64,000 bases of DNA from Legionella saoudiensis (GTDB lineage: Bacteria; Pseudomonadota; Gammaproteobacteria; Legionellales; Legionellaceae). The stretch is taken from positions 186,001 to 250,000 of the forward strand of contig NZ_LN901322.1 in assembly GCF_001465875.1 (NCBI RefSeq), given 5' to 3'. The translations under genes and the position numbers were made by a program. Shown one piece after another: positions 17,681 through 41,445 of this stretch. The first letter of the stretch is position 1. Every line of letters begins with the position of its first letter. The notes under the pieces are model-generated. The model was not told the DNA's origin and ran no database searches. It saw only the letters and a program-made list of their open reading frames with translations.

Positions 17681-18124
17681 TCAACGTTCTTGAGATCGCA
17701 ATCGATCTAGATGATGAATAATCAATGAATTCACCACTTCTTTATTAAAATCAGGACAAAAACGTGGATAATCACGTTCAAGACCATAAGACCATTTTTC
17801 CAAACGTTCATGATCATATTCGATCATGTCTTCAAACAAGTAACCTTTCCCGTAAGTTTCTTCACAATGAAGGCCAACTCCACCATCATAAAGCTCCCCT
17901 GATGGCATGCGCAACGCAATGTGCCAGCACTCTTCATGGGATGTCATCATCACAAAAACAATATGCACTTTATCCTGAAATCGGCCATTCCAAGCATCAA
18001 AAAATAATTTAGCAAACGCGCCACAAGGACCATAATTAATCCTTGGTGTTTCTTCATGAAATCCCAGCAATTGATTTATATCGTTTTTTAAATCATTTAA
18101 AACTGTAATTTCTTCTGCATTCAC
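17681..18124 (-). CDS. Unrecognised protein with Cys/His pattern of papain-like hydrolases
   Basis: This 147-aa protein matches no family I can name with certainty. It has GPCGAFAKLFFDAWN near residues 32-46 and ECWHIALRMPSGELYDGGVG near residues 65-85. Cys in G-x-C-G and His before a GELYDGG turn resemble the catalytic Cys and His layout of NlpC/papain-like or transglutaminase-like folds, so a small thiol hydrolase is possible. It stands alone between a terminator and the AlaX-like gene (62-bp gap). Confidence 0.6.
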   Translation of the reverse strand: MNAEEITVLNDLKNDINQLLGFHEETPRINYGPCGAFAKLFFDAWNGRFQDKVHIVFVMMTSHEECWHIALRMPSGELYDGGVGLHCEETYGKGYLFEDMIEYDHERLEKWSYGLERDYPRFCPDFNKEVVNSLIIHHLDRLRSQER

Positions 18125-18186
18125 TCATAACTCCCGTAGTATTAAGCTACTTTTTTTGATTAAGACACTTTATGTTTAAGCTGAAT

Positions 18187-18822: not shown

Positions 18823-18825
18823 GAC

Positions 18826-19317
18826 TTACTCTCTAATCTTTACCACTATCCCATTTGTTAGCTGTTTAAGCTCGTCAGGAGATAATGAAAACACTGCATT
18901 GGGCGTTCCTGCTGCGGCCCAAAGAACTTCATGGCATAACAAATCTTCATCGATAAGAACAGTATTAATAACATTTTTATGGCCAACGGGAGGGACCCCA
19001 CCAATCGCGAAACCAGTTACTTCTCGTGTAAAATCTGCATCAGCTTTCCCAATAGGTTCATTGATGAGACTCTCAATCAGGCTCTCATTCACGCGATTAA
19101 CACCACTTGCTAATACCAATACCGGCTTGTTGGTTTTTTCAGTGCGAAATAGTAGTGACTTCACAATTTGAGCAACACTACATCCCAAAGTATTAGCGGC
19201 ATCTTTTGCGGTTCGTGTGCTTAAATCAAGTTCCTTGACCACACACGATATCCCCTTTTGAGATAAAAAATCCTGGATGATTTGTGCGCTTTTACCTAAA
19301 TTTTTATCTTTATTCAT
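18826..19317 (-). CDS. YbaK/EbsC-family tRNA deacylase-like protein
   Basis: This protein of about 163 aa starts at ATG 19317 with AGAGG 6 nt upstream. It shows the family pattern: SVAQIVKSLLF with the conserved Lys, DFTREVTGFAIGGVPPVGH, and a C-terminal FSLSPDELKQLT. YbaK/ProXp enzymes clear mischarged Cys- or Ala-tRNA(Pro). It lies 3 bp upstream of the AlaX gene and 10 bp downstream of the DUF2000 gene, so the three are very likely one transcript. Confidence 0.9.
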   Translation of the reverse strand: MNKDKNLGKSAQIIQDFLSQKGISCVVKELDLSTRTAKDAANTLGCSVAQIVKSLLFRTEKTNKPVLVLASGVNRVNESLIESLINEPIGKADADFTREVTGFAIGGVPPVGHKNVINTVLIDEDLLCHEVLWAAAGTPNAVFSLSPDELKQLTNGIVVKIRE

Positions 19318-19327
19318 CAAAGTCCTC

Positions 19328-19750
19328 TCATCGCCACAAAGAACACTTTCTAGTGAGCTCTGTCACCACCTCCCAATCCCCAAACAAGACAATGCCATAG
19401 TAAATCAGATCGTTCTCTTTAACCTGTGCCGTTCTTGCAATTTGCTCTTGATAGGTACCAACAGTCATCGTATCGGTAAAATCATTAAAAAGAACATTTT
19501 TTGCTAAAGCATTCTGGCGTAATGTTCTAATTTTATTGGAGTTCTCACAAAGAATGATAAAAGGTATTTCTGAAATGTAAGGGTGAGATCCTCCATCTGC
19601 ATCTCGATAATCGGTTAAACGCAGTTCTTTTTCACCAATCACAGCACCTAAACCAATACACATATGAGCAAGTGCATTCATCACTTTTCCTGGCTCAATA
19701 CGCTTATTAAGTACAACAACAAGTTTGTTTTTAAAAAGTTGTTCAACCAT
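19328..19750 (-). CDS. DUF2000 protein (peptidyl-tRNA-hydrolase-2-like fold)
   Basis: This protein of about 140 aa has ATG 19750 with GGAGG 5 nt upstream; a GTG at 19762 is also in frame. The sequence KLVVVLNKRIEPGKVMNALAHMCIGLG is typical of DUF2000, whose fold is close to peptidyl-tRNA hydrolase 2 (a relationship known for the family, not shown here). It heads the putative operon with YbaK and AlaX and is divergent from the XRE-cupin regulator. A role in tRNA or aminoacyl quality control is inferred from context. Confidence 0.82.
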   Translation of the reverse strand: MVEQLFKNKLVVVLNKRIEPGKVMNALAHMCIGLGAVIGEKELRLTDYRDADGGSHPYISEIPFIILCENSNKIRTLRQNALAKNVLFNDFTDTMTVGTYQEQIARTAQVKENDLIYYGIVLFGDWEVVTELTRKCSLWR

Positions 19751-19780
19751 ACAATCCTCCACAATCTACTTCACAACTCG

Positions 19781-19833
19781 TGCGTTATAACGCATAATAA
19801 TACAGTATATACTTGTGCGCTAAAACGCACAAG
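19781..19833. promoter_or_regulatory. Two palindromic operator candidates between the editing operon and its regulator
   Basis: TGCGTTATAACGCA (19781-19794) is a perfect 14-bp palindrome. CTTGTGCG-CTAAAA-CGCACAAG (19812-19833) is a perfect 8-bp-arm dyad. Both contain the core GCG-(TTATAA/CTAAAA)-CGC, and centre to centre they are about 35 bp apart. They lie between divergent genes starting at 19750 and 19855 and are probably the binding sites of the XRE-cupin regulator encoded alongside. Confidence 0.7.
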
Positions 19834-19854
19834 CTTTTTTTAATAAGGGACATA

Positions 19855-20418
19855 ATGCAAGAAATTTCAAACCGTATTGCAAAAATACTAAAATCATTAA
19901 GACAAGAGCGAGGTTGGAGCTTAGATAAAACAGCGCTTGAAACGGGCGTTTCTAAAGCGATGCTTGGGCAAATTGAACGCGAAGAGTCAAGCCCAACAAT
20001 TTCTACCCTATGGAAAATTGCGAGCGGCTTTCAAACCTCCTTTTCATCGTTTATTGAAGACAGTCTGGATAATTCAACCAATCCTATTTATAGGACAGGA
20101 CATGCTGAAACCTTGCATCCAGATGATGAAAAAATACGAGTACTTCCTCTGTTTCCTTTTGATGAACAGCTACATTTTGAATTGTTTGTTATTGAGTTAT
20201 TGCCCGGATGCGAACATCTTTCACCTCCGCATAAACATGGAGTCATTGAGCATGTCATTGTTGTGGACGGAACCATTGATATTTTATTACGCGGGTGTTG
20301 GAAAACACTTTCCAAAGGAGAAGGGCTTCGTTTTAACGCCAATCAACCGCATGGCTACCGGAATCCAACCAATGAGCTATCGCGCATCCATGATATTATT
20401 CATTACCCACCTCAATAG
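19855..20418 (+). CDS. XRE-family regulator with C-terminal cupin
   Basis: This 187-aa protein has residues about 8-62 as an HTH_3 domain (LRQERGWSLDKTALETGVSK) and about 105-185 as a cupin (HLSPPHKHGVIEHVIVVDG, then RFNANQPHGYRN). The HTH-plus-cupin layout is typical of ligand-sensing repressors such as PuuR. I chose ATG 19855 (AAGGGA upstream) over the in-frame upstream codon at 19813, because 19813 lies within the palindrome region. It is divergent from the DUF2000-YbaK-AlaX operon and is its likely regulator. Confidence 0.88.
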   Translation: MQEISNRIAKILKSLRQERGWSLDKTALETGVSKAMLGQIEREESSPTISTLWKIASGFQTSFSSFIEDSLDNSTNPIYRTGHAETLHPDDEKIRVLPLFPFDEQLHFELFVIELLPGCEHLSPPHKHGVIEHVIVVDGTIDILLRGCWKTLSKGEGLRFNANQPHGYRNPTNELSRIHDIIHYPPQ

Positions 20419-20434
20419 GAGTTCCCTTAATAGG

Positions 20435-21388
20435 TTATGGCACATAAAACAAAGGGGTTAATGCCATAGTTTTTAAGTCATGAAGCCACTCATCCCGTGG
20501 CTTTCCTCCTGGAGCTGTTTCTTCAAACCAGTTGTATTTACACCAGAGGTAGATATCCAAGCTTTTCATTTGCGAAAAATGATTCACTTCTTTCAATTCT
20601 TCTGAGCTCAATGGCCGGATTTGCCTATATCCTTCTATAAACCATTCAAACAGTAGTTGCCAGAGAGGCCATGGTTTATTACATAAATCCAAAAAGGGTT
20701 TGGCAATATCGGCAAGATACCAATGATAAACTGGCTCATCAAAATCAATCAGATGAACGCTCTCACCATCATAAAGCACATTTCCAGGACGATGGTCCCC
20801 ATGGGTTAGGCCAAAATTAGATGAGTCGATTGAAAAAGTTTTGAAGCGTGTCGTAATCGTTTCATATAAATCCTGAATCAAGGACTCTTCTTGACGCGCA
20901 TAATCCAAAGTCTCACGCCACAAATCTTCCCAAGCTAAAAAGTGATGCTCTGATGCAACATAACTTTGCGAGGCTTGATGCAATTGAGCTAAAGCGCGGC
21001 CCCACGTTAAATAAGCTTTTTTATCTGGATAATCAAAATGCATGATTTGCCCTGGTACTTCACGGCAAACATGAACAAAAAATTCCAAATCCTCTTGGTG
21101 TACCGTTTCGACATCATTTCCTGCTTGGGATACCACCGGTTGACAAATAGGCGTACCACATAAAAATAAATGTTTCTGAAAATCAATCGCACTCAAAAGC
21201 TCACGCGCTTTTCGTATTTTTTCATGGGTCATGCGCAGGTAAAAGCCTTGTCCATTAGATTCAAATCGATAAACACAGTTAATTTGATTATTGATAAGCT
21301 TAAGATGGGTAGGGTTTTTTACCCATTTTTTTGCAGCCTGATTAGCCGTTTTATCCGTAATTTTTTTTAATGTGGTCTCCCAAATCAT
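20435..21388 (-). CDS. APH-family / SrkA-like protein kinase fold
   Basis: This 317-aa protein has the catalytic motif LTHGDHRPGNVLYD and metal motif LIDFDEPVYHWYLAD. The DFDE and WYLADIA run is typical of the homoserine-kinase/SrkA-like branch of APH enzymes (phosphotransferase enzyme family). The N-terminal lobe has VYRFESNGQGFYLRM. It ends 16 bp before the convergent XRE-cupin gene, and its start overlaps the upstream GNAT gene by 4 bp. Could act on a small molecule or a protein Ser/Thr. Confidence 0.8.
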   Translation of the reverse strand: MIWETTLKKITDKTANQAAKKWVKNPTHLKLINNQINCVYRFESNGQGFYLRMTHEKIRKARELLSAIDFQKHLFLCGTPICQPVVSQAGNDVETVHQEDLEFFVHVCREVPGQIMHFDYPDKKAYLTWGRALAQLHQASQSYVASEHHFLAWEDLWRETLDYARQEESLIQDLYETITTRFKTFSIDSSNFGLTHGDHRPGNVLYDGESVHLIDFDEPVYHWYLADIAKPFLDLCNKPWPLWQLLFEWFIEGYRQIRPLSSEELKEVNHFSQMKSLDIYLWCKYNWFEETAPGGKPRDEWLHDLKTMALTPLFYVP

Positions 21389-21951
21389 ACTTGAATACCT
21401 TTATTGTTTAGATAATCAGATCTGGATAATCGATAAAGCACATGTCGTCTCAAGGGGCTATTGGGCTCCAATTTGGGATGATCAAAATCATCCTTGGTAT
21501 TGTGATATAAACCAATTTTTTCCATAACACGTCTTGAGGCTAGATTATTCACTACTGTAAATGAAACTACTTCGGGAAGATTTAAAGAGGTAAATGCATA
21601 ATGCAAAACCGCTTTTGCTCCTTCCGTAGCATAACCCTGATTCCAATGCGTTGAGGAAAGTCTCCAACCAATTTCAACAGCGGGAGTAAAGTGCGCTTCA
21701 AAAGAGGGAGTCATTAACCCTAAAAATCCTATCATTTCCCCTGTACTTTTCAGTTCAACAGCATACAAAGAAAATCCCTTCTCTTTATAATGTGCAACAA
21801 TCCGCTCAATACCTGCTTTTGTAGCACTCTTACTCCCTATTCCTGGTAAAAATTGGCATACTTTTTTGTCTTGATCAATAAGTGCCATAGGATCAAGATC
21901 AGCTTCCTGCCATGTTCGTAAAATCAGACGGGGAGTTTCAAGAATATTCAT
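21385..21951 (-). CDS. RimJ/RimL-type GNAT acetyltransferase
   Basis: This 188-aa protein starts with TPRLILRTWQEADLDPM, the standard opening of RimJ/L-like GNATs. It shows VEIGWRLSSTHWNQGYATEG and SRRVMEKIGL, also family standards. RimJ/L relatives acetylate ribosomal protein N-termini or small molecules. The start overlaps the kinase-GNAT gene by 14 bp, so expression is coupled. Confidence 0.9.
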   Translation of the reverse strand: MNILETPRLILRTWQEADLDPMALIDQDKKVCQFLPGIGSKSATKAGIERIVAHYKEKGFSLYAVELKSTGEMIGFLGLMTPSFEAHFTPAVEIGWRLSSTHWNQGYATEGAKAVLHYAFTSLNLPEVVSFTVVNNLASRRVMEKIGLYHNTKDDFDHPKLEPNSPLRRHVLYRLSRSDYLNNKGIQV

Positions 21952-23074
21952 GGGACCCTCTATAAGTAAGCATGTTTATCATGAGTAGGTAATTGGCGTC
22001 TTCACTGTATTGCGTGGGAACAAAACCAGCCTTTTGATAGCACGCTATGGCTTGTTCGTTTCCAATTTGAGGATCAACGACAACGGCTTTAAATCTGTAG
22101 AGTTGTTTTGCAATAAAATGCCTTATAATTTGTCTACCCAACCCTACTCCACGACACGATGGCTCTGCAATAAAAAGGTCGATACCAGCCAATTGTTTAG
22201 GTGTAGCCTTGTCAAACAAGGAAGCATTATGTCCTGAAATTCCTTCGGGTAAATGGTCGGCAAGACAGTAATATTGAATAAAACCAATTGGTTTTTGATC
22301 CAAATAAATAATAAAACTCGGGACTGGATCCATGCCTTCAATGCGGGGTAAGTACTTTGCCCTAATATCTGCCAAAGAAAACTGTTGATTTCGTGCATAC
22401 CCTTGTTTCACTGTAGGCTCTGCAAACCATTGGGTCATTATATTCAAATCTTTTTGACTCAATGGTTTAAATTCCAGATTCTGATTTTTACTCCCATAAA
22501 CTAAGGAAGTCCAATCCAAAATATGACGCGCTGACTCCTCTGCTGAAAGGAGGCTCACATCTAGAGTCAGTTCATGCAGCTCTTTGCTAAAATAAACGTC
22601 TTCATCAAACAGTCTTTTTGTAATGAGCGTCTCATCTTGTGTTTTAAAATAGCCTTCTCTATCTGAGTCTTTTAAGCGTTTAACAAGCTCTGCCCCATTA
22701 CAAATCAATCGGATAGGAACAAACACAGCTTCCCGTTTTTGAGCAACGGTTTGTACTTGATTAAAAAATTCCTGATGCCAAGAATTATTCGCTAAGAGCT
22801 CATAGGTAATAACAAAGCTCGTTTCTTTAGAACAAACCTCGGTCATCGTATCAAAAATCACGTCGCGGGCTTTGTTAAGCGCTGCCCATCCTTTATCATC
22901 AAGAGACCAAAATACTTGAGCATCACTACCCAGAAGGTTTAGAACTCGATCGATCCAAGCATGGTGATGCGCTAGTCGAAACTGAGGAGCCAGTGTTGTA
23001 ATTGCCTCCCCTATGGTTTTTTTACCGGTACCTGCAATACCCATCAAAAGTATCATCACATTCGTCTGCATCAT
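21938..23074 (-). CDS. P-loop kinase fused to a GNAT acetyltransferase
   Basis: In this 378-aa protein, residues 1-190 are a P-loop kinase-like domain with Walker A GIAGTGKKT at 12-20 (Lys in place of the first Ser/Thr, followed by Thr). Residues about 200-370 are an AAC(6')-like GNAT domain (KPLSQKDLNIMTQWFAEPTVKQG split over the start; IDLFIAEPSCRGVGLGRQII). The GNAT domain has the aminoglycoside-acetyltransferase look (FIQYYCLADHLPEG). The upstream kinase-like gene ends 3 bp before it. A bifunctional kinase/acetyltransferase is inferred. Confidence 0.82.
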   Translation of the reverse strand: MMQTNVMILLMGIAGTGKKTIGEAITTLAPQFRLAHHHAWIDRVLNLLGSDAQVFWSLDDKGWAALNKARDVIFDTMTEVCSKETSFVITYELLANNSWHQEFFNQVQTVAQKREAVFVPIRLICNGAELVKRLKDSDREGYFKTQDETLITKRLFDEDVYFSKELHELTLDVSLLSAEESARHILDWTSLVYGSKNQNLEFKPLSQKDLNIMTQWFAEPTVKQGYARNQQFSLADIRAKYLPRIEGMDPVPSFIIYLDQKPIGFIQYYCLADHLPEGISGHNASLFDKATPKQLAGIDLFIAEPSCRGVGLGRQIIRHFIAKQLYRFKAVVVDPQIGNEQAIACYQKAGFVPTQYSEDANYLLMINMLTYRGSHEYS

Positions 23075-23077
23075 TTC

Positions 23078-23620
23078 TTAAAACCCTGTCACAATACTGT
23101 ACTCTTCTTTATGTGCCAGAACACGCATCAAGTGCGCCACATCATATGGACTACGTAGCTCAATGAATTTAACTTTTGGATATTGGTTCTTTAAGGCATT
23201 TAATAAAGGGTTAATCCGTTGTTCATAGTTCCACATATAACTTAATAGCGACCATCGAACTGTTTCATTGCAACCAGCGGCTCTATCATCAATTTCTGAA
23301 GCCTTATAAAACAAGCGCTTAAATACCCGCCAATAACATAGCCACTTGTGTAAATTAAAGTACAAGCACATGTCGGCTTCGCGATAGCGCATCTCAAATG
23401 ATCGACTGGAATTACCATCAATAATCCAGCAAGGTTTGGCAACTAATTCTTTTTGAAGTGACAAAAAATCCTCATATTCTCGTGGCACCCAATCGGCAAT
23501 AAAAAAATATTTATCTAAATGGAACAATGGAATATTTAGACTCTTTTGCAACATAACAGAAAAAGTGGACTTGCCACTTCCTGGTCTACCAATAATCATG
23601 ATGCGTTGTAAGTTTATCAT
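23078..23620 (-). CDS. Adenylate-kinase-like P-loop protein (FlaR / topology-modulation type)
   Basis: This 180-aa protein has Walker A GRPGSGKST at 11-19, IPLFHLDKYFFIADWVPRE as the family's LID/NMP region, and IIDGNSSRS. It belongs to the FlaR/'topology modulation' group of small P-loop kinases, whose true substrate is unclear. It is probably the first gene of the minus-strand APH-GNAT-kinase operon and is preceded by an 82-bp AT-rich gap. Confidence 0.8.
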   Translation of the reverse strand: MINLQRIMIIGRPGSGKSTFSVMLQKSLNIPLFHLDKYFFIADWVPREYEDFLSLQKELVAKPCWIIDGNSSRSFEMRYREADMCLYFNLHKWLCYWRVFKRLFYKASEIDDRAAGCNETVRWSLLSYMWNYEQRINPLLNALKNQYPKVKFIELRSPYDVAHLMRVLAHKEEYSIVTGF

Positions 23621-23702
23621 TTCATTCGGAGTTTAATTTACTGTATTCTTTTCTTAAGGATGCAAATGATTATTGTACTCATCCGCTACACTATCTTAAA
23701 CT

Positions 23703-24161
23703 TTAAGTAGTCTGTTCTTCTCTTAACTGTTTCAGTACAGTTTTTATCGTGGCATGAGAAAAACCTCGACCACTTAAGAAACGAGCCAATTTTGTATTTA
23801 TTGCCTCATCTGTCTCATTCTTAAATCCACGCATTTTTTTCCGGACTTCATCCAGAGCACGAACTTCTTCCAGTTCAATATGATCTAAGACTTGCTCAAT
23901 CACTTCTTCTTTAACGCCCTTCTGTTTTAATATTTGTTGAATAAAACGGTTTCCTTTATGGATATAACGGGCACTTAATGATTCAGCCAAACGATTATCA
24001 TTAATTAAATGTAATTCCCGAAGGCGAGCTATGGTTGCATGAATCTTATCATCTAACTGGGGAACATGAGAAAAATCCCTCTCCAATTGCCTTATGAGTT
24101 CTTTTTCACTGCAATAATGATTAGAAAGATATTTTATTGCTGCATCGATGAGTGTATTCAT
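23703..24161 (-). CDS. recX: RecX regulatory protein
   Basis: This 152-aa protein has three RecX three-helix repeats: YLSNHYCSEKELIRQL, then LHLINDNRLAESLSARYIHKG, and finally FLSGRGFSHATIKTVLKQL. RecX caps RecA filaments and reduces recombination. No recA lies next to it, so this may be a plasmid-borne modulator of host RecA, useful when single-stranded DNA enters by conjugation. The start at ATG 24161 is antiparallel to the upstream part of the integrase frame. Confidence 0.9.
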   Translation of the reverse strand: MNTLIDAAIKYLSNHYCSEKELIRQLERDFSHVPQLDDKIHATIARLRELHLINDNRLAESLSARYIHKGNRFIQQILKQKGVKEEVIEQVLDHIELEEVRALDEVRKKMRGFKNETDEAINTKLARFLSGRGFSHATIKTVLKQLREEQTT

Positions 24162-31758: not shown

Positions 31759-32319
31759 ATGAAAACAATTTGTGTATACCTTGGTGCTAGTTCTGGAAAT
31801 AATCTGGCATTCAAAGAAGCTGTTATTAAGCTTGCTCATGAAATAGTGGCTCATGGACTTACACTAGTTTATGGTGGGTCATGTCTTGGTATGATGGGTT
31901 TATTAGCAAGAACTGTAAAAGAGTTGGGCGGTAAAGCGATCGGGGTTACAACCACACATCTTTTAGACAAAGAAAAACCGTTAGACATTCTAGATGAACT
32001 TCATATAGTCTCCTCCATGCAAGAAAGAAAAAAAATGCTTCAACATCTGGCAGACGCATTTATCGTTATGCCTGGTGGTTTAGGAACACTAGAGGAAGCG
32101 GTCGAAACATGGAATGCAATAAAAATTGGAGAGCTGGACAAAAAGATAGGGTTTCTTAACGTTGATGATTACTTTATAAAACTATTTAGTTTTATGGAGC
32201 ATTGTAATAAAAATGGATTTATAACAGCTGAGCAAACAGCTATTCCCTCCGTGCAAGTTGAACCTAAAAAATTGTTGAGTGATTTAGTCCTAGCAAAATC
32301 TGAAGAATTGATTGTGTGA
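31759..32319 (+). CDS. LOG-family nucleotide 5'-phosphoribohydrolase
   Basis: This 186-aa protein has the LOG/YvdD pattern: SSGNNLAFKEA near the start, LVYGGSCLGMMGLLA, and the active-site PGGLGTLEEAVETWN. These proteins release ribose 5-phosphate from nucleotide monophosphates such as cytokinin ribotides. They are often mislabelled lysine decarboxylase. It begins the cargo after the replicon and lies 33 bp before the transporter gene. Confidence 0.88.
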   Translation: MKTICVYLGASSGNNLAFKEAVIKLAHEIVAHGLTLVYGGSCLGMMGLLARTVKELGGKAIGVTTTHLLDKEKPLDILDELHIVSSMQERKKMLQHLADAFIVMPGGLGTLEEAVETWNAIKIGELDKKIGFLNVDDYFIKLFSFMEHCNKNGFITAEQTAIPSVQVEPKKLLSDLVLAKSEELIV

Positions 32320-32352: not shown

Positions 32353-33807
32353 ATGCATGCTGTAAGAGGTGAGCGAAAAGGGATAGTTTATCTACATTGG
32401 CTAAATGCAGTAACTACATTCAGTTTTGCTATTATATTTTCATCATTATCCCTTTATTTAACAAAGAACATTGGCTTAACTCAAATGCAATCCAATGGAG
32501 TCGTAGGATTTTTTCTGGCATCAAATTTTATTTTACATTTTGTAGCAGGGTACATTGGGGATAGATTTTTAAGTAATCGATTGCTATTTGCCATTTCAAC
32601 GCTCATACAAACTTTAGGTCTAATAGTGCTTAATTTTTCTGATTCTTTTGTATATCTAGGGTTAAGCTTGTTTCTTATAGGGTGTGGATTAGGATCTACA
32701 TGTATTAACTGCCTTATTACCCAACAATTTACAAGTAACGAAAATGAATTAAGAGAAAAAGCATTTTTTCATAATTACAGTGCTATGAATATAGGATTCC
32801 TCTCTGGTTATGTTATGAGCGGATTTATTGATATTCACGATAGATACGATCGTTTATTTGAGGTTAGTAATTTGATTAATCTAATTACGGTGTTTTTCAT
32901 TATTAAATCGTGGAAATATTTCGCAAAAAATAAAGTAAATACCAAGGAGGAGATAAAGAGGGGTCGATTAGGACTGATATTAATCATACTTATTATACCT
33001 ATTCTTCTAGCAGGGTTTTATTATTCTTGGTTAGCAAATGGCCTCATACTCTTTATTGGCGCTGCCGCTTTATTCTATATCACATTACTTGGGCGTAGTT
33101 TAAGTACACAAAATGCACGAAAAAAAATTTATTCTTTTGTATTTTTAACGGTAAGTTCAATTGTATTTTGGATGCTTTATTTTGTAGGACCTATGGGTGT
33201 GACTCAATTCTTGAAGTATAACGTGAATATTTACATAGGTTCTTATTATATTCCTCCACAATGGTTAATGAATTTAAACTCAATTTTTGTAATTATTGGC
33301 TCACCTATAGCAATCACTCTATTTGATAAACTAAGAAAGAAACAAATCACCATTTCGATATCAAAACAATTTATGTGTTCCTTAGTGTTTATTGCATTAT
33401 CGTTTTTGGCATTGACTGTTGGCATAATGAATTGTGGTACAGATGGATTAACTAGCATGGTTTGGATTATTGCGCATTATCTTCTTCAAGCGATAGGGGA
33501 GTTGCTTATTGCTCCTGTTGGTTACGCGATGATAGGAAGTCTTGCACCAGAAAAACTGCAAGGACTTATGATGGGGATCTGGATGATGGCTTCAGGAATA
33601 GCAGCCACATTATCCAATTATTTTTCTAATTTAATGACTCAATCTGAATCATTAAATCCGCTTATTAGCAATGAACATTATATGAGCGCATTTACCCAGC
33701 TAGGTTTTTATGCCATCTTTGGTGCACTCATTCTCTGGTTATGTTCTAAAACAATTGAGAATAGTATACAAAAAACCTCGGTCGATGCGATCGAAGGAAT
33801 GGCATAA
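32353..33807 (+). CDS. POT/PTR-family peptide transporter-like protein
   Basis: This 484-aa integral membrane protein has about 12-14 hydrophobic helices. The fold is POT-like (GYIGDRFLSN after the second helix; a Q-G-L-M-M-G-I-W motif near the end). The proton-coupling ExxER motif of helix 1 is missing: the equivalent stretch reads NAVTTFSF. So substrate coupling may differ from classical DtpA/PepT transporters. It ends 1 nt before a convergent gene and may export or import a product of the neighbouring biosynthetic operon. Confidence 0.8.
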   Translation: MHAVRGERKGIVYLHWLNAVTTFSFAIIFSSLSLYLTKNIGLTQMQSNGVVGFFLASNFILHFVAGYIGDRFLSNRLLFAISTLIQTLGLIVLNFSDSFVYLGLSLFLIGCGLGSTCINCLITQQFTSNENELREKAFFHNYSAMNIGFLSGYVMSGFIDIHDRYDRLFEVSNLINLITVFFIIKSWKYFAKNKVNTKEEIKRGRLGLILIILIIPILLAGFYYSWLANGLILFIGAAALFYITLLGRSLSTQNARKKIYSFVFLTVSSIVFWMLYFVGPMGVTQFLKYNVNIYIGSYYIPPQWLMNLNSIFVIIGSPIAITLFDKLRKKQITISISKQFMCSLVFIALSFLALTVGIMNCGTDGLTSMVWIIAHYLLQAIGELLIAPVGYAMIGSLAPEKLQGLMMGIWMMASGIAATLSNYFSNLMTQSESLNPLISNEHYMSAFTQLGFYAIFGALILWLCSKTIENSIQKTSVDAIEGMA

Positions 33808-33808
33808 T

Positions 33809-34831
33809 CTATTGTAACGATAATTCAGCCTGTAATTTCGATAACTTTGTTTCTTCTTGAACTAATATTTTTAGAAAATTGTCCAATATATTAGGGTTTT
33901 TTATTGTTTTGATATCTTTTTTAATGCCATTTATAAGACTTTGTTGAATTTGAAGTGACTTTTGTAATTCCATGTTAGTGCATGGGGGATGAGCCAATTC
34001 ATAAACATTGGATAAATGTTTATTTGTAGCGATCTCATCTAATCCAGAATAAGTACATTCTTCCTTCTTCAATTGCAGTCGAACAGCATTTTCTAGATCG
34101 TACTTTTCCTTGTAACGTTTCCCTTCTGGAGAATATTTATCAAATCCTTTGGGGGTTCTCCAGCGATTTGAGCGAAGAAGTTGAGAAATGATATTAATTT
34201 TGTGTTGAAAAGTGCCAATGTTTTGGAATTGTTCTTGGTTACTTAATGAAAATACAACCTCATCCAAGACCTTTTGTGGTGAGGATAGTTTTATTCCGTG
34301 TTGCTTTTGAACATTCAACAACATCCCTTTAGCGATATTGAGCTCGTTAAGTGGTAATTCAGTATCTGAATGAGAAATAGTAATATTATTAATTACTCTA
34401 TTTTTTTCTTTATTAATGATATCTGTTGAAACAAGATAATCCATTCTCTCGTTTATATCCGACCCGGTAACGATCTCCTTTTCTTTTATCTCTATAGTGT
34501 TTTGGGGTTCTTTGGGTATTAATTGTAATTTTCGTTGAAGCGTTTCTGTAAGGGTTATAAACGATCGAGGTACGCCGTAATATTTAAATCGCTTTCTGAT
34601 AATGAAGCCTTCTTCTTCTAAGTTCTTTAGATAGATATATATTCTGCTTTCACTAAAACCAAGCTCTGCGGCAAGCTCAGGGATTTTTTTTGTGAACCAT
34701 AATCTATTGTCACGCTTTAAAAGAGTGCCTTGATGATGAAAGATTATTTTATCTAAGAGAAGTGCTTCTTTAGGGCATTTTGTTAACGAAAGAAGCTTAT
34801 TAAAGCCTAAATAATAAATTGAATTATTCAT
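33809..34831 (-). CDS. Unrecognised protein with an N-terminal winged-helix domain
   Basis: In this 340-aa protein, residues about 15-110 look like a winged-helix domain of the kind in plasmid replication or MarR-like proteins (LLLDKIIFHHQGTLLK, ELAAELGFSESRIYIYLKNL, GFIIRKR). The rest is Lys/Glu-rich, without a family I recognise. It shares its strand with the small LuxR-type gene upstream (20-bp gap) and lies convergent with the transporter gene. A DNA-binding role in plasmid control is inferred. Confidence 0.6.
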   Translation of the reverse strand: MNNSIYYLGFNKLLSLTKCPKEALLLDKIIFHHQGTLLKRDNRLWFTKKIPELAAELGFSESRIYIYLKNLEEEGFIIRKRFKYYGVPRSFITLTETLQRKLQLIPKEPQNTIEIKEKEIVTGSDINERMDYLVSTDIINKEKNRVINNITISHSDTELPLNELNIAKGMLLNVQKQHGIKLSSPQKVLDEVVFSLSNQEQFQNIGTFQHKINIISQLLRSNRWRTPKGFDKYSPEGKRYKEKYDLENAVRLQLKKEECTYSGLDEIATNKHLSNVYELAHPPCTNMELQKSLQIQQSLINGIKKDIKTIKNPNILDNFLKILVQEETKLSKLQAELSLQ

Positions 34832-34851: not shown

Positions 34852-35046
34852 TTACTTAATTAACCCCGATGTGGTCAGCATATAAATTAACTGAGGCGTG
34901 GTTTTACAATTAAAACTTGTTTTTAGGTCACTAAGTCGATAAAGAATGTACCTTTTTGACTTCTTTGTATCTTCAGCAATGTCATTCACATGGCAGCCGT
35001 TAACTATCATTTTTATGATTTGATTATCCACATGGTCGATTGTCAT
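34852..35046 (-). CDS. Small LuxR-type HTH protein
   Basis: This protein of about 64 aa is essentially a lone GerE-type HTH (QIIKMIVNGCHVNDIAEDTK, then a recognition helix KSKRYILYRLSDLKTSFNC). I chose ATG 35046 because GGAG lies 5 nt upstream; two in-frame ATGs upstream (35085, 35073) would extend it to 77 aa. It is divergent from the YcaO-TfuA operon and may regulate it. LuxR-like domains of this size can act as dominant partners or as full regulators of small operons. Confidence 0.72.
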   Translation of the reverse strand: MTIDHVDNQIIKMIVNGCHVNDIAEDTKKSKRYILYRLSDLKTSFNCKTTPQLIYMLTTSGLIK

Positions 35047-35096
35047 TAAAACTCCGTTTTTATATAAACGCATTCCATGTGACATAATTTATAACT

Positions 35097-35229: not shown

Positions 35230-36492
35230 ATGAGTGAACTATCTTGGGATAAGGTAAAAACGGACATCGCTCGGGTTAACAAACGCCTCTATCAAGTATT
35301 GGAAACGATAGACGGCATTCAAAATATGCTTTTTACTGTACTTGAATATCAGTATGGGCAGATCATAGCAGATGAACACCACTTTTATTTACCAAATACT
35401 GGCGGCAAACTTTCTTCAGTTCCGTTTTCAATGGTTTTAGAAAAAAATCTTGAAATGTTTATTGAGTTTAAAGGGAAGTCAAGTACGCATCAGGTTTATA
35501 GAGAGGGAGATTTTTTAAGCGTTAGTTCACTTTATGATGCTTCAAATACTCATCATCCAACAGATATATTGCAAATATCGTCCGGCGCAAGGAATACATT
35601 CTTACTCTGTCCTGTAGCGGATGCAAGGCCTCATGCTAGTTTAGAAAAATATTTTAAGGCGGATATTCCTGTTCCAGATGATCTTGGAAATCATTATTTA
35701 ACCTTCAAAAGCTTATGCGATGCAGCTAATTGTAACTGGCGTTCAAGGTTATTGGTATTTCCCTCTGAAATTGTAACCTTAATAAAAGAGAATAAATTAC
35801 CTACTCTTTTGAGTTTGGTGATGGAGTTTGATTCTAATCAGACAGGATATTACGCAAATCTGCCTTTTTATAATTATCTAATGGCCTATGTTCGGGCAAA
35901 TAGTCCCGAAATATCTCAAAATGAATTCACTAATAATGCGATTAGCCAATTGATTACCATAGGGACAGGACAAGTTCCTGGCTACGGATTAGCTGTTGGT
36001 GATGATTTGTTACCTTTAGATTTTATTGTTGAGGTATATCGCGATATATATAAATCCAAATACACTCCCTTTGTTATGGAGCCAGTACATTTTAATAAAA
36101 ATAAAAACAATCCTGTTTTTTATTCAATACTCAAAGAAGAGATGGCTTTTAAACCAACATCATTTTCAAATAAACCACAACGCTGTGAACTAATATACGA
36201 TACTTATTTGCAATATGCGGATCAGATAAGGAAGTTAGGTCATTTCAAGAGTACCCCGTTTTTTGAAAGTGCTACTAATCTGGATTTAACACTTTTTCAT
36301 GAAAAGAATAATCAAGTGACTAATAATCTATTTAAATTGCCTAGAGAGACAATTTTTTCTTACGATTCTCGGTTTTTAGAAGTAACAGATAAACTTGGTT
36401 ATTCAGTAGATCAGTTCCCTTCTAAAACAACATTTTTAGTAGGATGCTTTGGTATTAAATACAATGAAAATAAAGACACTGCTATGCATTGA
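35230..36492 (+). CDS. Unrecognised 420-aa protein, first gene of the YcaO-TfuA operon
   Basis: I do not recognise this protein. It is soluble, without signal peptide or membrane helix, and has a mixed composition. Its first 50 residues are predicted helical and could contain a coiled segment; later parts contain AVGDDLLPLDFIVEVYRDIY. There is no obvious nucleotide-binding motif. It overlaps the ATP-grasp gene by 29 bp, so the two are translationally coupled. It could be a partner, a carrier, or a tailoring enzyme of the pathway. Precursor peptides are normally much shorter. Confidence 0.65.
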   Translation: MSELSWDKVKTDIARVNKRLYQVLETIDGIQNMLFTVLEYQYGQIIADEHHFYLPNTGGKLSSVPFSMVLEKNLEMFIEFKGKSSTHQVYREGDFLSVSSLYDASNTHHPTDILQISSGARNTFLLCPVADARPHASLEKYFKADIPVPDDLGNHYLTFKSLCDAANCNWRSRLLVFPSEIVTLIKENKLPTLLSLVMEFDSNQTGYYANLPFYNYLMAYVRANSPEISQNEFTNNAISQLITIGTGQVPGYGLAVGDDLLPLDFIVEVYRDIYKSKYTPFVMEPVHFNKNKNNPVFYSILKEEMAFKPTSFSNKPQRCELIYDTYLQYADQIRKLGHFKSTPFFESATNLDLTLFHEKNNQVTNNLFKLPRETIFSYDSRFLEVTDKLGYSVDQFPSKTTFLVGCFGIKYNENKDTAMH

Positions 36493-37627
36493 TCCCCTCC
36501 AGGATTATGAGCTAATTGATTGTGATCTACTAGTTCAGCTAGGAATTTCCCCCATTTTTTTGATTAAAGATGAATCTAAGTTTGTTAAGGACAGAGAAAA
36601 TGTGTTAGTAAGCTCATTTTCATTTGAAGATCTGCTCGCTATTTGTGATTCGATTCATCCTGATTATATAGTCTGTTTTTCGGAAGATATGTTTGTTGAT
36701 GTAGCAAGAGTCAGGGAAAAACTAAACATCGCAGGCATGGGTTTGAATACATCGATGCTATTAAGTCATAAAGATCTTATGTATCAAAAATTGGATGGTT
36801 TATTTTTATATCCTAAAACAACAACATTGATTGAATCTTCAAATCTAAAATCAATCAAAGAAAGGATAGGTGATCAAGAGATATTTATTAAACCTATTAA
36901 TTCATCTGGCTCGTATGAGACATATCATATTAAAACCGAGAAGGATTTTTGTGATTTTTTGGCCAATAAAAAAGAGAGTGAGGAAAAGTATATCGTTCAA
37001 GCTTATGTTGCAGATGATTTATACCATTCAGAATTGGCAGTATTTGATGGGGATATATTATTTGTAGAAGCCAGAAAATATACGCATCCAAATCATTTAA
37101 TGGTCAGTAAAAATTTGCCTATATTTAGTCTGAATATTTTAGATGAGCACCAACGACAATTAATTTTGGATGCTTCAGTTAAGGTTTGTCAGTTATTAGA
37201 ATTTAATAACGGGGTGCTTCACACCGAGTTTTTCATGAGTGAGGATGGTTGTATTCAGTTTATTGAAACTAATGCTAGACCTCCAGGTATTGGTCTAAAT
37301 AAGTTATACCAAAAGAAATACTCTTTAAGCCTTGAAACAATTTTATGTTGTATTGTTTGTGAGATTGAGCCTCCTAGCTTGGTAAAGAATAAAAGCCATT
37401 ACATTTGTGGTTATTTTCCTAGAAAGAACGGTGTTATAAAAAGAATTCATAAGCCAGAACTTTCTGTACAAAACGAGTGGATACTTTTTGTTAGGCCTGA
37501 TGATACTAGTGAGCAAATGGCGCATATGTCTAAGTCAGCGATGGTGATTTGTTGGGATGACTCTATTACTGAAATAAATCAAACAGGTAGCTTTCTTGCA
37601 GAGCAAGATATTGTAGAAATATATTAA
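36464..37627 (+). CDS. ATP-grasp ligase
   Basis: This 387-aa protein starts at ATG 36464. The ATP-grasp plan is visible: IFIKPINSSGSYETYHI (lysine and glycine loop), KYIVQAYVADDLYHSELAVF, and the catalytic acidic motif GCIQFIETNARPPG. It is similar to carboxylate-amine ligases that form peptide bonds. It could activate a carboxyl group on the product or join an amino acid to the substrate. It is followed by a 149-bp gap, then the sulfur-carrier gene. Confidence 0.88.
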   Translation: MKIKTLLCIDPLQDYELIDCDLLVQLGISPIFLIKDESKFVKDRENVLVSSFSFEDLLAICDSIHPDYIVCFSEDMFVDVARVREKLNIAGMGLNTSMLLSHKDLMYQKLDGLFLYPKTTTLIESSNLKSIKERIGDQEIFIKPINSSGSYETYHIKTEKDFCDFLANKKESEEKYIVQAYVADDLYHSELAVFDGDILFVEARKYTHPNHLMVSKNLPIFSLNILDEHQRQLILDASVKVCQLLEFNNGVLHTEFFMSEDGCIQFIETNARPPGIGLNKLYQKKYSLSLETILCCIVCEIEPPSLVKNKSHYICGYFPRKNGVIKRIHKPELSVQNEWILFVRPDDTSEQMAHMSKSAMVICWDDSITEINQTGSFLAEQDIVEIY

Positions 37628-37776
37628 TTCTAAAAATCGATTATAGCCTCATTTTGGCTGCTGATGAGTTTTTAGTAAGGTCTTTAAACAGTTGTTCGTT
37701 CATATTTTCGTCACAATTGTTAAAAATATAAGTAAATTATATATGTCGTTTATACAAAAATCTACAGGTTATAAGA
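37628..37776. promoter_or_regulatory. Gap with possible weak terminator and second promoter
   Basis: A weak stem, CTCAT...ATGAG, is followed by TTTTT near 37647-37675. A later AT-rich run with TTGTTA and TAAATTATAT-like elements precedes ATG 37777. This may give the sulfur-transfer genes a separate promoter. Low certainty. Confidence 0.3.
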
Positions 37777-38028
37777 ATGCATGAATATCAATTAATAGAG
37801 TTTAATTCAGATAGAAAACAAATCCAATTGGTTTCCAGTAAATCAAATTTGCAACAGGTATTAGCAGAATTTTATAAAGAAAATTTTGAAAAAATGTTTG
37901 ACGACTGTGGTTGTTCAAAGGGATACATTTCCGTATTTGTTAACTCAGAACAGATATCATCCATTAAAGATATTATTCTTAACCCAAATGATGAAGTGTG
38001 TATTGTGACTTCTATTTCAGGAGGGTAG
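37777..38028 (+). CDS. MoaD/ThiS-like sulfur-carrier protein
   Basis: This 83-aa protein is of ubiquitin-fold sulfur-carrier size and ends in SISGG. The C-terminal Gly-Gly can be adenylated and turned into a thiocarboxylate. The fold signal is moderate: NLQQVLAEFYKEN early, then VFVNSEQISSI and NPNDEVCIVTSISGG. The GG codons double as the ribosome site (AGGAGG) of the next gene. It is the likely sulfur donor for the YcaO-TfuA reaction. Confidence 0.88.
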   Translation: MHEYQLIEFNSDRKQIQLVSSKSNLQQVLAEFYKENFEKMFDDCGCSKGYISVFVNSEQISSIKDIILNPNDEVCIVTSISGG

Positions 38029-38032
38029 GAGA

Positions 38033-39055
38033 GTGGATAGATACAAACGTCAAATTTCCGTTATTGGAGAGCAAGGTCAAAAAATAATAAATAACGCAAC
38101 AATTATGATCGTTGGACTCGGCGGGATAGGCAGTCCAGTAGCTCAATATCTTGCCGCAGCTGGTGTTGGAAAGTTAATTCTTGTCGACGATGATAAAGTA
38201 GACCTTTCTAATTTGCATAGACAGATCTTATTTAATGAATGCGATATTGGGTTTTATAAGGCAGAAAAGGCGAGGGATGTTTTAAGTAAAATTAATAAAA
38301 ATATTGTTATAGAGGCTCACACTAAAAGGTTTGATGTGGATTTAGGATATTCCTTAGTATCCGATATCGACTTGATTATTGACGGAACAGATAATTTTGA
38401 AACAAGATACCTTATTAACGATATTTGTGTTTTAAAGAATAAAGTATTTATAAGCTGTAGTATTTTGGTCAATATCATTCAGCTTGCTTTATTTGATACA
38501 AAGCACCTTTGTTATCGTTGTCTATACCCTAATCCACCACCTATAGGTGTAATACCTAATTGTTCGGAAGCGGGTGTGCTAGGCACTGTGACAGGAATGG
38601 CAGGAACCATGGCTGCTAATCTGGCATTAAATTATTTACTCAAGATAGAGAATGAGAAAGTACCACAGATACGAATAATAGATGCAAAAAACTTCAACAT
38701 CTCTTCCATGCCTATAAAGCAAAATAATAACTGTTTTGCATGTAAACAAAGAAAAATCAGCTTAAGTTATCTGCAGAATCAAGGCGCTGATCATGGAATT
38801 TCCCTGGGGCAACTTGATAGAACCAAACATTTTCTAGTTGATATAAGGCAAAAAGAAGAACGAGAGATTACTAAGTTAGAAGATGATCTATTTTTTCCTA
38901 TTAAAGAGAATACTGATTATTCATTTTTCTTATCCTATAAAGATAAGAAGTTGGTATTTTATTGTGCATCAGGATATCGAAGTAAATTGTTTGTATCAGA
39001 ACTGAGAAACTTTGGTGTTGATGCCTATTATCTTAATGAAAGGCTTCCTAAATGA
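38033..39055 (+). CDS. E1-like adenylyltransferase (ThiF/MoeB) with C-terminal rhodanese
   Basis: This 340-aa protein starts at GTG 38033. The ATP loop is VGLGGIGSP at 28-35. Zinc ligands are Cys160, Cys163, Cys234 and Cys237; the active Cys is 177 (NCSEAGVLG). Residues about 262-340 are a rhodanese domain with the loop YCASGYRS, catalytic Cys311. This MoeB-rhodanese layout can adenylate the MoaD-like C terminus and transfer persulfide sulfur to it. It lies 4 bp downstream of the carrier gene and overlaps YcaO by 4 bp. Confidence 0.9.
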   Translation: MDRYKRQISVIGEQGQKIINNATIMIVGLGGIGSPVAQYLAAAGVGKLILVDDDKVDLSNLHRQILFNECDIGFYKAEKARDVLSKINKNIVIEAHTKRFDVDLGYSLVSDIDLIIDGTDNFETRYLINDICVLKNKVFISCSILVNIIQLALFDTKHLCYRCLYPNPPPIGVIPNCSEAGVLGTVTGMAGTMAANLALNYLLKIENEKVPQIRIIDAKNFNISSMPIKQNNNCFACKQRKISLSYLQNQGADHGISLGQLDRTKHFLVDIRQKEEREITKLEDDLFFPIKENTDYSFFLSYKDKKLVFYCASGYRSKLFVSELRNFGVDAYYLNERLPK

Positions 39056-40119
39056 TTTTTGAGCATCAAGAAACGTCTTTAAGAGCTCGCAATTACTGCG
39101 AAACACTAGGCGTATTGACTTCTTTCAAGAAACTGGCAGGAATTACACGGTTAGCCGATTTAACCCATTTAGATTACACCGCGCTACCGCTACCTGTCTA
39201 TACTGCAATAAGGCCTAGAGCAAAATCGTTAACCACGAGTCAGGGAAAAGGATTAACAAAAGAGGCAGCTCAGTGCTCGGCATTGATGGAGTCCATTGAA
39301 GTATATTTTGCCGAAGAATTAATCCCACAAGTAATTAATAAGTCAGAGCTTGAGCTAGCTCAAGACAAAGCTATTTTTATACCACTAAACGATCTTTCAA
39401 AGTCTGTACACTTTAGTGATTCATCAAGGCCAATGAATTGGGTACAAGCTGAATTAGTATTTGCAAAAAAATCCATTCTCGTGCCTTTTGCTGAGTTCTC
39501 ATTAAATTCTTATTTGCCGGAAGTATTGATTTACTCTCCTGATACAACTGGACTTGCTGGGGGAAATAACTATAAAGAGGCCCTTTTACACGGAATTCTA
39601 GAGGTAATAGAACGACAAAATGTTCTAAAGATATCTCAAACTGATTTTGTTAATGGCAGAATGGTTAAAAATATAACAGAAAAATTTGATTGTCATATTT
39701 ACTTTCATGAAAATATTTATGAAATTCCCTCGTTTGAGGTATGGATTAAATCAAAAAATCCTTTTGAAAATCAAATTCTATTTAAAGGTGGTGGATGTCA
39801 TCTCGATAAACAAATCGCTTTAAATCGTGCACTGACCGAGGCCATTCAATCCCGAGTAACTACAATAGCAGGTTCCCGTGATGACTTGATTCATACAAAG
39901 TATGATTTTCAAACTAGTGAGTTTCCTGTCGTCAAAGATAAGAAGGATTTTTCTAAGTTGCCTAATTATTCGGTAACGACAATAGAAGATGCACTTTCGG
40001 CCTTGTTTAAAAAGATTAAGGGAAACAATCAGGATATTTTAGTTTATAAATACTATGACAAAGAAATATGCATTTTAAAAGTAAAACTAATTTCTATGGA
40101 TTTGATAAGCCATGCATAA
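39052..40119 (+). CDS. YcaO-family cyclodehydratase/thioamidase
   Basis: This 355-aa protein has the YcaO ATP-binding pattern: KGLTKEAAQCSALMESIEVY, GGNNYKEALLHGILEVIERQ, and LNRALTEAIQSR. YcaO enzymes phosphorylate a backbone amide, so that a nucleophile (side-chain thiol or hydroxyl, or external sulfide) adds. Paired with TfuA, the usual outcome is thioamide formation. The gene is overlapped by both neighbours (4 and 8 bp). The substrate peptide or protein is not evident nearby. Confidence 0.92.
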   Translation: MIFEHQETSLRARNYCETLGVLTSFKKLAGITRLADLTHLDYTALPLPVYTAIRPRAKSLTTSQGKGLTKEAAQCSALMESIEVYFAEELIPQVINKSELELAQDKAIFIPLNDLSKSVHFSDSSRPMNWVQAELVFAKKSILVPFAEFSLNSYLPEVLIYSPDTTGLAGGNNYKEALLHGILEVIERQNVLKISQTDFVNGRMVKNITEKFDCHIYFHENIYEIPSFEVWIKSKNPFENQILFKGGGCHLDKQIALNRALTEAIQSRVTTIAGSRDDLIHTKYDFQTSEFPVVKDKKDFSKLPNYSVTTIEDALSALFKKIKGNNQDILVYKYYDKEICILKVKLISMDLISHA

Positions 40120-41146
40120 AACCGTAGTTTTCTTAGAAACTTCGTTAACTCACCAAGAGGCGATGCATCTACTTCCTCACGCAGGGTATTTACCTTCAAT
40201 CAAAAAAGGAGATGTACTTAAAGCAATAAAATCAGGATATAAACGGATAGTTATCATCGATGGAAATTTTTCCTGGGTTCCTTCTGTGTGGCATAAAGAA
40301 ATATTAACAGCATTAGACTACGGTATTGAGGTTTGGGGTGCAGCTTCAATGGGGGCTTTGAGAGCAGCCGAGCTGGATTCTTTTGGCATGCGGGGGCATG
40401 GGCGTATATATGAGATGTATAAGAATGAAGAAGTAGATGGTGACGATGAAGTGGCAATTGCTTATTCTAAATTCAATAACGTGCAAACTATTCCTTTAAT
40501 CAATATCCGCCTAACGCTTGAACGACTAAATAGTATTAATAATGGAACTGTTTTAAATTCAATACGCTCCATTTTTTATGCTGAAAGAACGTGGGAGAAA
40601 ATTTCTCAACACGTGTCAGAAGACCATTACCATTTGATTAAAGCAAATTATATAGACGCAAAAAAAGAGGATGCAAAGTCCTTATTGCTTTCTTTAAACC
40701 AACAACACATTCTTTCTACGGTTTCTGATTTAAATAGAAAAAAAAGAGAGTTTACTCTTTTTGAAAAAAAATTAATTGAGTCTACTTTGTCTCCAGTTTG
40801 GTTGCATGCTCCGAGGCATGAGCAGACAGAGGGTTCGCCTTCTCTACAGAGGACGGAAAATATTCTTAAATTATTATCAATTCCTGAAACAAAAAAAAAT
40901 AGGCTCAATTATCAATGCTTACTGTATCTTCTTGATCAAGAAACGTACACAATTACAGAATACGAGCTTATATATCAAGTCGAACAATTTAGAGAAGAGC
41001 ATAACTTGTTAAAAGGAGAGGATTTTTTTAACTGGTTAAAGGACCTGGGATTGCATGAGTCTAACCTAGAACAACTCTTTACCGACTATGTAAAATTGAT
41101 GAAATATTTGATAATTACCTACGATTTCAATAGTTATTTTAATTAG
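40112..41146 (+). CDS. TfuA-like protein
   Basis: In this 344-aa protein, residues about 1-125 hold the canonical TfuA core (KSGYKRIVIIDGNFSWVPSV, then ALDYGIEVWGAASMGALRAAEL, then GHGRIYEMYK). TfuA is thought to deliver sulfide to YcaO in thioamidation. The C-terminal 200 residues have no recognised domain. It overlaps YcaO by 8 bp and ends the operon. The MoaD-like thiocarboxylate is the natural sulfide source in this setting. Confidence 0.92.
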   Translation: MHKTVVFLETSLTHQEAMHLLPHAGYLPSIKKGDVLKAIKSGYKRIVIIDGNFSWVPSVWHKEILTALDYGIEVWGAASMGALRAAELDSFGMRGHGRIYEMYKNEEVDGDDEVAIAYSKFNNVQTIPLINIRLTLERLNSINNGTVLNSIRSIFYAERTWEKISQHVSEDHYHLIKANYIDAKKEDAKSLLLSLNQQHILSTVSDLNRKKREFTLFEKKLIESTLSPVWLHAPRHEQTEGSPSLQRTENILKLLSIPETKKNRLNYQCLLYLLDQETYTITEYELIYQVEQFREEHNLLKGEDFFNWLKDLGLHESNLEQLFTDYVKLMKYLIITYDFNSYFN

Positions 41147-41190
41147 CCTATTCATTCTAAAAAAAATTTTCATTTTTTTTCTTATCCTTG

Positions 41191-41200
41191 CACCTAGGTG
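41191..41200. promoter_or_regulatory. Palindrome CACCTAGGTG
   Basis: A perfect 10-bp palindrome lies between tfuA and the small ORF at 41260, followed by a related GCACCT at 41204-41209. A possible operator for the transfer region; weak evidence. Confidence 0.3.
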
Positions 41201-41259
41201 AATGCACCTTCATTTAAATGATGGTTCAATAACCTTATCACTTATCAAAATAATCCATT

Positions 41260-41445
41260 ATGAATGTAGAACAAGAAGTATTTGATATTTTAGAGAGTTG
41301 TATTTCCTGTTTGCAGCAGGCGGCTTTAAACATAGGTGGCTTTGATTTTGATAAACATGCACAAGCAGCGATATATGCTTATTCATTATTAAGAAGGCAA
41401 CAGTTGTTTTTAATGTATCCGATCGAGAATGAAACAGTGCATTGA
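41260..41445 (+). CDS. Hypothetical 61-aa protein
   Basis: A short reading frame (MNVEQEVFDILESCISCLQQ...) with two Cys (CISC) and a helical look, from ATG 41260; no strong ribosome site. It lies between the TfuA gene and the transfer operon. It could be a RiPP precursor for the YcaO operon, a transfer regulator, or a spurious ORF. The C-terminal half is not rich in Cys, Ser or Thr, which argues against a classical azole precursor. Confidence 0.45.
   Translation: MNVEQEVFDILESCISCLQQAALNIGGFDFDKHAQAAIYAYSLLRRQQLFLMYPIENETVH

Follow-up and report, generated by a model that had tools for sequence, protein, structure and literature searches.

A six-gene cassette of Legionella saoudiensis is probably a mobile biosynthetic unit whose product is a small ribosomal peptide (RiPP) that is thioamidated. 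It spans positions 35230-41146 of the window, by which we mean the whole 64 000-nucleotide stretch analyzed (bases 186001-250000 of the 492-kb contig NZ_LN901322.1; the genome is 3.84 Mb in 10 contigs). ParA-like, ParB-like and Rep3 replication genes lie immediately to the left of the cassette and F-type tra genes immediately to its right; the contig may be a large plasmid, or else a chromosome into which an element has integrated. In favor of the RiPP reading we count intact motifs, recurrence of the cassette in two forms (types I and II) with different tra backbones, a dedicated E1 and ThiS, conserved small ORFs between genes B and C, and the placement of gene A relatives beside peptide-modifying enzymes elsewhere, all features that are read from sequence and that suggest rather than prove a peptide product.

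Gene organization

The first-pass annotation of this DNA listed six plus-strand genes (A-F here), mostly overlapping or nearly abutting. All six ORFs are open, intact and in that order; A/B, D/E and E/F overlap and the C-D gap is 4 bp, the exception being a 149-bp gap between B and C. Its treatment of the six genes as one functional unit is supported, and the gene set is retained in other loci. Gene A (35230..36492) encodes a 420-aa protein of an unannotated family, with a predicted N-terminal CRP/cNBD-like beta-barrel and an alpha/beta region. Gene B (36464..37627) encodes an ATP-grasp enzyme of the class that comprises L-amino-acid/peptide ligases (ATP-grasp_4, 1.9e-7); a mechanical ORF call begins at TTG 36449, but the pLLO homologue is annotated from the corresponding ATG, hence the start at 36464. 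Gene C (37777..38028) encodes a ThiS/MoaD-like sulfur carrier ending in SISGG (PF02597; ThiS, 3.6e-6), gene D (38033..39055) a MoeZ/Uba4-like E1 adenylyltransferase-rhodanese fusion (ThiF PF00899, 1.2e-67; Rhodanese, 4e-4), gene E (39052..40119) a YcaO protein (PF02624, 1e-38), and gene F (40112..41146) a TfuA protein with a long C-terminal extension (PF07812, 5e-35).

A POT/MFS peptide transporter gene (32353..33807, plus strand; PTR2, 2.7e-30) accompanies the cassette. Between it and A are two minus-strand genes, one for a winged-helix protein that is a putative regulator or replication-type protein (33809..34831; HTH_5, 1e-4; PHROG replication initiation, 3.6e-8), the other for a 77-aa LuxR-type-like HTH protein (34852..35085; weak GerE match, 0.08), a putative regulator divergent from A. 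Promoter and terminator scans of the locus yielded a number of sites not above chance, and the only PADLOC match to anti-phage defence was a generic E1.

Distribution and mobility

TfuA is present in 17 of the 45 genomes of the genus. The same gene set in the same order (type I) occurs in 14 of these 17, in most cases on plasmids whose conjugation backbones differ; nearly all type I units also hold the POT transporter, a downstream 61-aa ORF and the two upstream HTH proteins, which are kept together with the cassette. In PLSDB the cassette is found on seven Legionella plasmids, mostly typed as conjugative, and the DNA matches of six plasmid records start at the POT gene or just before it. Identity between the flanking tra genes varies from almost complete down to about 25%, with A proteins 67-99% identical throughout, which indicates that the cassette moves between backbones. 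A 2011 paper had drawn ycaO and tfu beside Legionella tra genes, as proteins of unknown function (PMC3218107).

A rearranged form (type II), with about 30-40% identity for most proteins, was found in loci L036, L038-L041 and L097. These have A, B, C, E and F, and a D that is divergent where present; in L097, D is absent from the part of the locus inspected. At the transporter position L036 has a POT relative (44% identity) and L039 another membrane protein. The first-pass annotation had tied its reading to co-occurrence of these genes in other genomes as well as to their co-transcription, and had suggested a genome-wide search for the same gene set; that search finds recurrence far beyond chance, and thus the co-occurrence half of the expectation holds.

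A probable carrier-fed sulfur relay

It had also been proposed that the operon contains a self-contained sulfur relay. D is the only ThiF-family (E1) gene of the genome and C the only ThiS above the family cut-off (a second ThiS-like match falls below it), and thus the cassette supplies its own pair rather than using one of the host; E is likewise the only YcaO. The described arrangement of an E1-rhodanese enzyme and a GG-ended carrier beside a TfuA-YcaO pair stands up in its particulars, with the domains, the GG tail and the active-site loop all intact. The C-terminal GG of C is invariant in eight of eight homologues compared, and since C already ends in GG a JAMM trimming protease would be unneeded. 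The Rhodanese score of D is just below the curated cut-off and its active-site loop, YCASGYRS, is intact; type I and type II D members keep the rhodanese loop YCxxGxRS with its active-site Cys, the nucleotide-binding Gly loop and two CxxC pairs, and the structure matches of D are to ThiF/Uba4/MoeB. The operon therefore joins a GG carrier to an E1-rhodanese, as a carrier-fed relay does.

Pathways of the thioquinolobactin type use a relay of carrier and MoeZ-like E1-rhodanese. The cassette resembles them in having these two parts; it differs in that C is pre-ended in GG and that YcaO-TfuA is the presumed sulfur acceptor. Such pairs serve thiocarboxylate pathways, and one could accordingly suppose that the carrier here yields a small molecule with a thiocarboxylate or thioester group, or provides sulfur for a metallophore, with YcaO activating a carboxyl group instead of a peptide bond. 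We regard this as very unlikely, because TfuA adjoins YcaO in every type I and type II locus inspected, and because a family search saw no NRPS/PKS, amidohydrolase or siderophore genes in the cassette.

For the YcaO protein E, comparison with PDB 6PE3 (MJ1094; E 5e-14) finds most ATP-binding motifs retained, and F matches the TfuA structure 6XP8 over residues 4-138 (E 5e-29). In one archaeal system TfuA hydrolyses thiocarboxylated ThiS on behalf of its YcaO (Liu et al. 2021, as conveyed by PMC8153245 and PMC8939145), and thioamidation of thiostreptamide S4 requires both YcaO and TfuA (PMC8153245). Two features of E count against the RiPP reading. In the first ATP motif, ExxER, ER is changed to EV; and E matches TIGR03266, the YcaO of McrA-glycine thioamidation, at 4e-37, which is below the equivalog cut-off.

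In a rival reading, YcaO-TfuA would modify a cellular or plasmid protein, like methanogen McrA or ribosomal uL16, and not a secreted peptide. Thioamidation of protein backbones is known (PMC5589413, PMC13063428), the best-scoring models for E and F are of the McrA type or of YcaO in general, and in NCBIfam the methanogen McrA system provides one of the nearest models for E and the sole model matched by F. The scores themselves fall short of the equivalog cut-offs (128 of 365 bits for TIGR03266, 170.6 of 235.2 bits for NF033432), and the pair is unlike that of methanogens in being bacterial and plasmid-borne, with a longer TfuA. That the cassette is plasmid-borne and patchily distributed, with a dedicated transporter, an ATP-grasp ligase and conserved small ORFs, also counts against modification of a protein target, which we judge quite unlikely.

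A candidate precursor at the B-C junction

The first-pass annotation saw no precursor and for that reason left the substrate as unknown; here we depart from it. The B-C gap of type I loci contains a conserved 20-codon minus-strand ORF (in the window, 37641..37703, encoding MNEQLFKDLTKNSSAAKMRL), and type II loci have a sense-strand ORF at the same junction, such that both forms offer a candidate precursor.

In every type I locus examined the 20-codon ORF has the same position and length, and in several a plausible ribosome-binding site precedes it. No second conserved small ORF was found in the gap, and no other annotated or recognized gene overlaps its stretch. Five divergent versions keep frame, length and sequence: MNEQLFKDLTKNSSAAKMRL in the window, MNEQLFKDLGKNSSAAKMRL in L035/L037, MNEQFLKDIVKNSSAAKMRL in L116, MNDKLFNDLVKTSSNFRMRM in L026 and MNELFFNDLIKTGASLKIKL in L052. 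Their changes are conservative, with about half or more on third codon positions. As a coding null we redistributed the observed base changes at random and scored how often the frame stayed open with equal or better similarity; P was 0 to 0.00125 per pair of versions.

In type II the ORF encodes 38-46 aa and ends directly before the ThiS start (in L097 its stop codon overlaps that start). Three peptides share the C-terminus SLN[ST]I[ESD][LF]I (YPVSLNTIELI in L036, NPISLNSISLI in L039, ESISLNSIDFI in L097), and with a variable N-terminal part before a conserved C-terminal core they look like RiPP precursors. The small peptides of neither type contain Cys, and a family search of ten genes found no azoline dehydrogenase, in agreement with the absence of a dehydrogenase remarked on earlier; on these two grounds the cassette is not an azol(in)e (TOMM) cluster.

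Three other small ORFs or spacers were considered. The gap between the HTH gene and A has no ORF conserved across all five loci compared. The 61-aa ORF (41260-41445) is not favored as a precursor, since by eye it resembles a small protein encoded close to csrA-like genes elsewhere, in other tra regions. Between F and this 61-aa ORF is an 11-codon minus-strand ORF, which some loci lack and which adjoins a palindrome where the DNA is conserved in general; conservation of the palindrome explains it, and we do not take it as coding.

With adjacent YcaO and TfuA genes whose domains are intact, and a short candidate precursor gene conserved as coding, the cassette resembles the TfuA-YcaO RiPP clusters (thioamitides such as thiostreptamide S4, and thiovarsolins). 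Unlike these it adds a dedicated ThiS, an E1-rhodanese, an ATP-grasp ligase and protein A, and its type I candidate precursor is only 20 aa long and antisense to the operon. So short and antisense a precursor is unusual for a RiPP and counts against that reading, as do the mutual dissimilarity of the type I and type II peptides, the lack of any recognized leader protease in the cassette and the failure to identify a known RRE-type precursor-binding domain. Legionella goes unmentioned in the text of a worldwide survey of TfuA-YcaO RiPP clusters (PMC8120280).

The ATP-grasp ligase

The best PDB match of B is 4WD3, an L-amino acid ligase (E 1.7e-14), and its metal- and ATP-binding residues (E260, E273, N275, R277 and K148) are invariant in types I and II. 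Association of ATP-grasp, YcaO and TfuA is known, and in the passages of PMC8939145 on such loci most have no precursor found; by gene content the cassette can be likened to the 'branch 6' clusters of that paper, which bring the same three together. The main text of that paper does not name Legionella, and the passages concerned describe neither a carrier with its E1 nor protein A nor small ORFs at the B-C junction. One step is compared there with PGM1 of the pheganomycin pathway, an enzyme that attaches a non-proteinogenic amino acid to a peptide of ribosomal origin, and the kinship of B to 4WD3 is compatible with an end-capping reaction of that sort. Graspetides are made by ATP-grasp enzymes of the MvdC/D type from precursors with many acceptor (Thr/Ser/Lys) and donor (Asp/Glu) residues. 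B matches L-amino-acid ligases rather than MvdC/D, and the putative type I core, KNSSAAKMRL, has no Asp or Glu.

The character of B also invites a non-ribosomal explanation, in which B makes a dipeptide from two amino acids or acids, E and F thioamidate it and the POT protein carries it, the small ORFs being regulatory or unrelated. B is indeed closest to L-amino-acid ligases, with weak matches to the BacD and dapdiamide synthase models, and the transporter is in a di/tripeptide family. What makes this explanation unlikely is that both types have small ORFs at the B-C position, which in type I are constrained as coding sequence and in type II share a conserved C-terminus, and that elsewhere A keeps company with enzymes of ribosomal peptides, for example borosin-like N-methyltransferases that have a small ORF next to them.

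The protein A family

Protein A was called an unknown protein at first pass, and it matches no Pfam, NCBIfam, PHROGs or PADLOC family. A profile search found relatives in 54 of the order's 143 genomes and, in a sample of 369 genomes of the class, in 23; a scan of viral contigs found none. We counted the neighbors of A in 40 loci picked by A alone. An MFS/POT transporter was within 5 kb in 24 of these, and at least one modifying enzyme was near A in 28: a TP_methylase-type (borosin-like) N-methyltransferase in 16, ATP-grasp in eight, YcaO in four and another SAM methyltransferase in six. Since MFS, ATP-grasp and SAM-methyltransferase genes are common, only the associations with the N-methyltransferase and YcaO are strong on their own.

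One of these N-methyltransferases matches the borosin enzymes SonM and OphMA, and BLAST places the others in its group; in several A loci a 61-68 aa ORF adjoins the N-methyltransferase. The genome of the window has just two TP_methylase genes, one of them adjacent to an A paralogue at C7. The surroundings of A paralogues, with N-methyltransferase, 61-68 aa ORF and MFS transporter, thus recall the split borosins, in which the precursor is separate from a SonM-type enzyme. The cassette in the window, which lacks a TP_methylase-type N-methyltransferase, is not itself a split borosin cluster, and its backbone chemistry is different. We found no paper in the open-licence literature that treats Legionella and borosins together.

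An AF2 model of A built with 13 close homologues had a pLDDT of 53, and one built with 49 sequences had a pLDDT of 90 and a pTM of 0.90. In the model the N-terminal barrel is like CRP-type cyclic-nucleotide-binding domains and the larger remainder has no match; against the PDB only CRP-family barrels are hit (best E 6e-4, TM ≤0.27). Assignment of A to a known fold was set aside, as PDB and viral fold searches match the CRP-like barrel only. One encapsulin type also carries a CRP-like barrel; no encapsulin-like fold is among the best 50 PDB matches of A. The best-conserved polar residues of A include E75, H155, S299, H357 and D379, and their conservation gives only a hint of a Ser299-His357-Asp379 triad. 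Small A clusters have no recognized protease, and by elimination we would guess that A acts in leader removal or peptide release.

These neighborhoods lead us to a broader idea, held tentatively, that A may mark a common ribosomal-peptide maturation module of Legionellales and other Gammaproteobacteria, in which a CRP-barrel protein and an MFS/POT transporter combine with interchangeable modifying enzymes (for thioamidation, N-methylation, ATP-grasp ligation or other methylation), and that conjugative plasmids disseminate one of these pathways, which has a sulfur relay of its own and an antisense precursor of 20 residues.

Proposed pathway and implications

For the RiPP pathway we propose the following scheme, in which the sulfur relay and thioamidation are inferred by homology and the roles of A, B and the transporter, as well as the direction of transport, are conjecture. 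The type I 20-residue ORF or the type II 38-46 residue ORF would encode a precursor with an N-terminal leader and a C-terminal core, approximately KNSSAAKMRL (type I) or SLNSIDFI (type II). The rhodanese domain of D would carry a persulfide sulfur and its E1 domain would adenylate the GG tail of C, which would become a thiocarboxylate. F would hydrolyse this thiocarboxylate and give sulfide to E, which would phosphorylate a backbone amide of the core and replace its oxygen with sulfur. Through B the peptide might gain an amino acid or small acid, or else an internal amide or ester bond, and A might handle the modified peptide through binding, leader removal or release, a role that would be common to other peptide-modifying clusters. 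The POT-type protein would carry the product across the membrane.

Thioamidated RiPPs made by TfuA-YcaO are already known, and in our best reading the Legionella cassette would add a carrier-fed variant whose product is predicted; judged by title and abstract, no other paper on Legionella and YcaO in the open-licence literature treats the cluster. Thioamide peptides of Gram-negative bacteria are little explored and their precursors hard to find. With all the dedicated relay parts in one operon, the sulfur route of bacterial TfuA becomes directly testable, and protein A would be a practical marker for many other cryptic peptide clusters of differing chemistry. If our reading is true, plasmids of Legionella harbor, and exchange with one another, a new family of peptides with modified backbones.

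Other genes in the window

A conserved palindrome, CACCTAGGTG (41186-41208), lies between the TfuA gene and the 61-aa ORF, embedded in the longer stretch CCTTGCACCTAGGTGAATGCACC; it is probably an operator preceding the tra region. The LOG-like (TIGR00730) gene at 31759-32319, flanked by rep and the transporter gene, is found in some but not all related loci, and probably belongs to the plasmid backbone. Genes for APH-type phosphotransferases and GNAT acetyltransferases are clustered at 4018-24000, among them a GNAT-APH fusion gene (4018-5562); these may encode antibiotic-modifying enzymes.

YcaO-TfuA clusters elsewhere

One Legionella genome carries a separate chromosomal cluster (L023, G008:C1:310000-329000) unlike the window cassette, encoding ThiS, E1-rhodanese, two YcaO and two TfuA proteins, along with HPr-kinase-like, sulfotransferase and small PqqD-like proteins (likeness judged by eye); no relative of A, the first protein of the cassette, was found in this cluster. 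From outside the family Legionellaceae comes a further candidate precursor, the 54-aa ORF of locus L123 (G498:C22), where the gene order is A, 54-aa ORF, E1, YcaO, TfuA; its proline-rich tail reads MNKVTLIPPLPGGLSTRVNKP.

Clusters with A paralogues

Uncharacterised split-borosin-like clusters are spread through Legionellales and also occur beyond the order. They combine an A paralogue, an N-methyltransferase, an MFS transporter and a 61-68 aa ORF, and were found at loci L098, L100-L105, L108, L110-L115, L117 and L120, and in the window's own genome (G000:C7:313609-315686). The mobilizable Legionella israelensis plasmid NZ_CP041669.1 (L042) encodes an A relative (24%) accompanied by an MFS transporter, a 64-66 aa ORF and a borosin-like N-methyltransferase. 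At L098, L099, L104 and L105, the A paralogues have an MFS transporter and an ATP-grasp protein next to them, together with proteins resembling Asp/Glu racemase, Ddl and PanD; these gene sets possibly specify a small-peptide pathway that involves a D-amino acid or beta-alanine.
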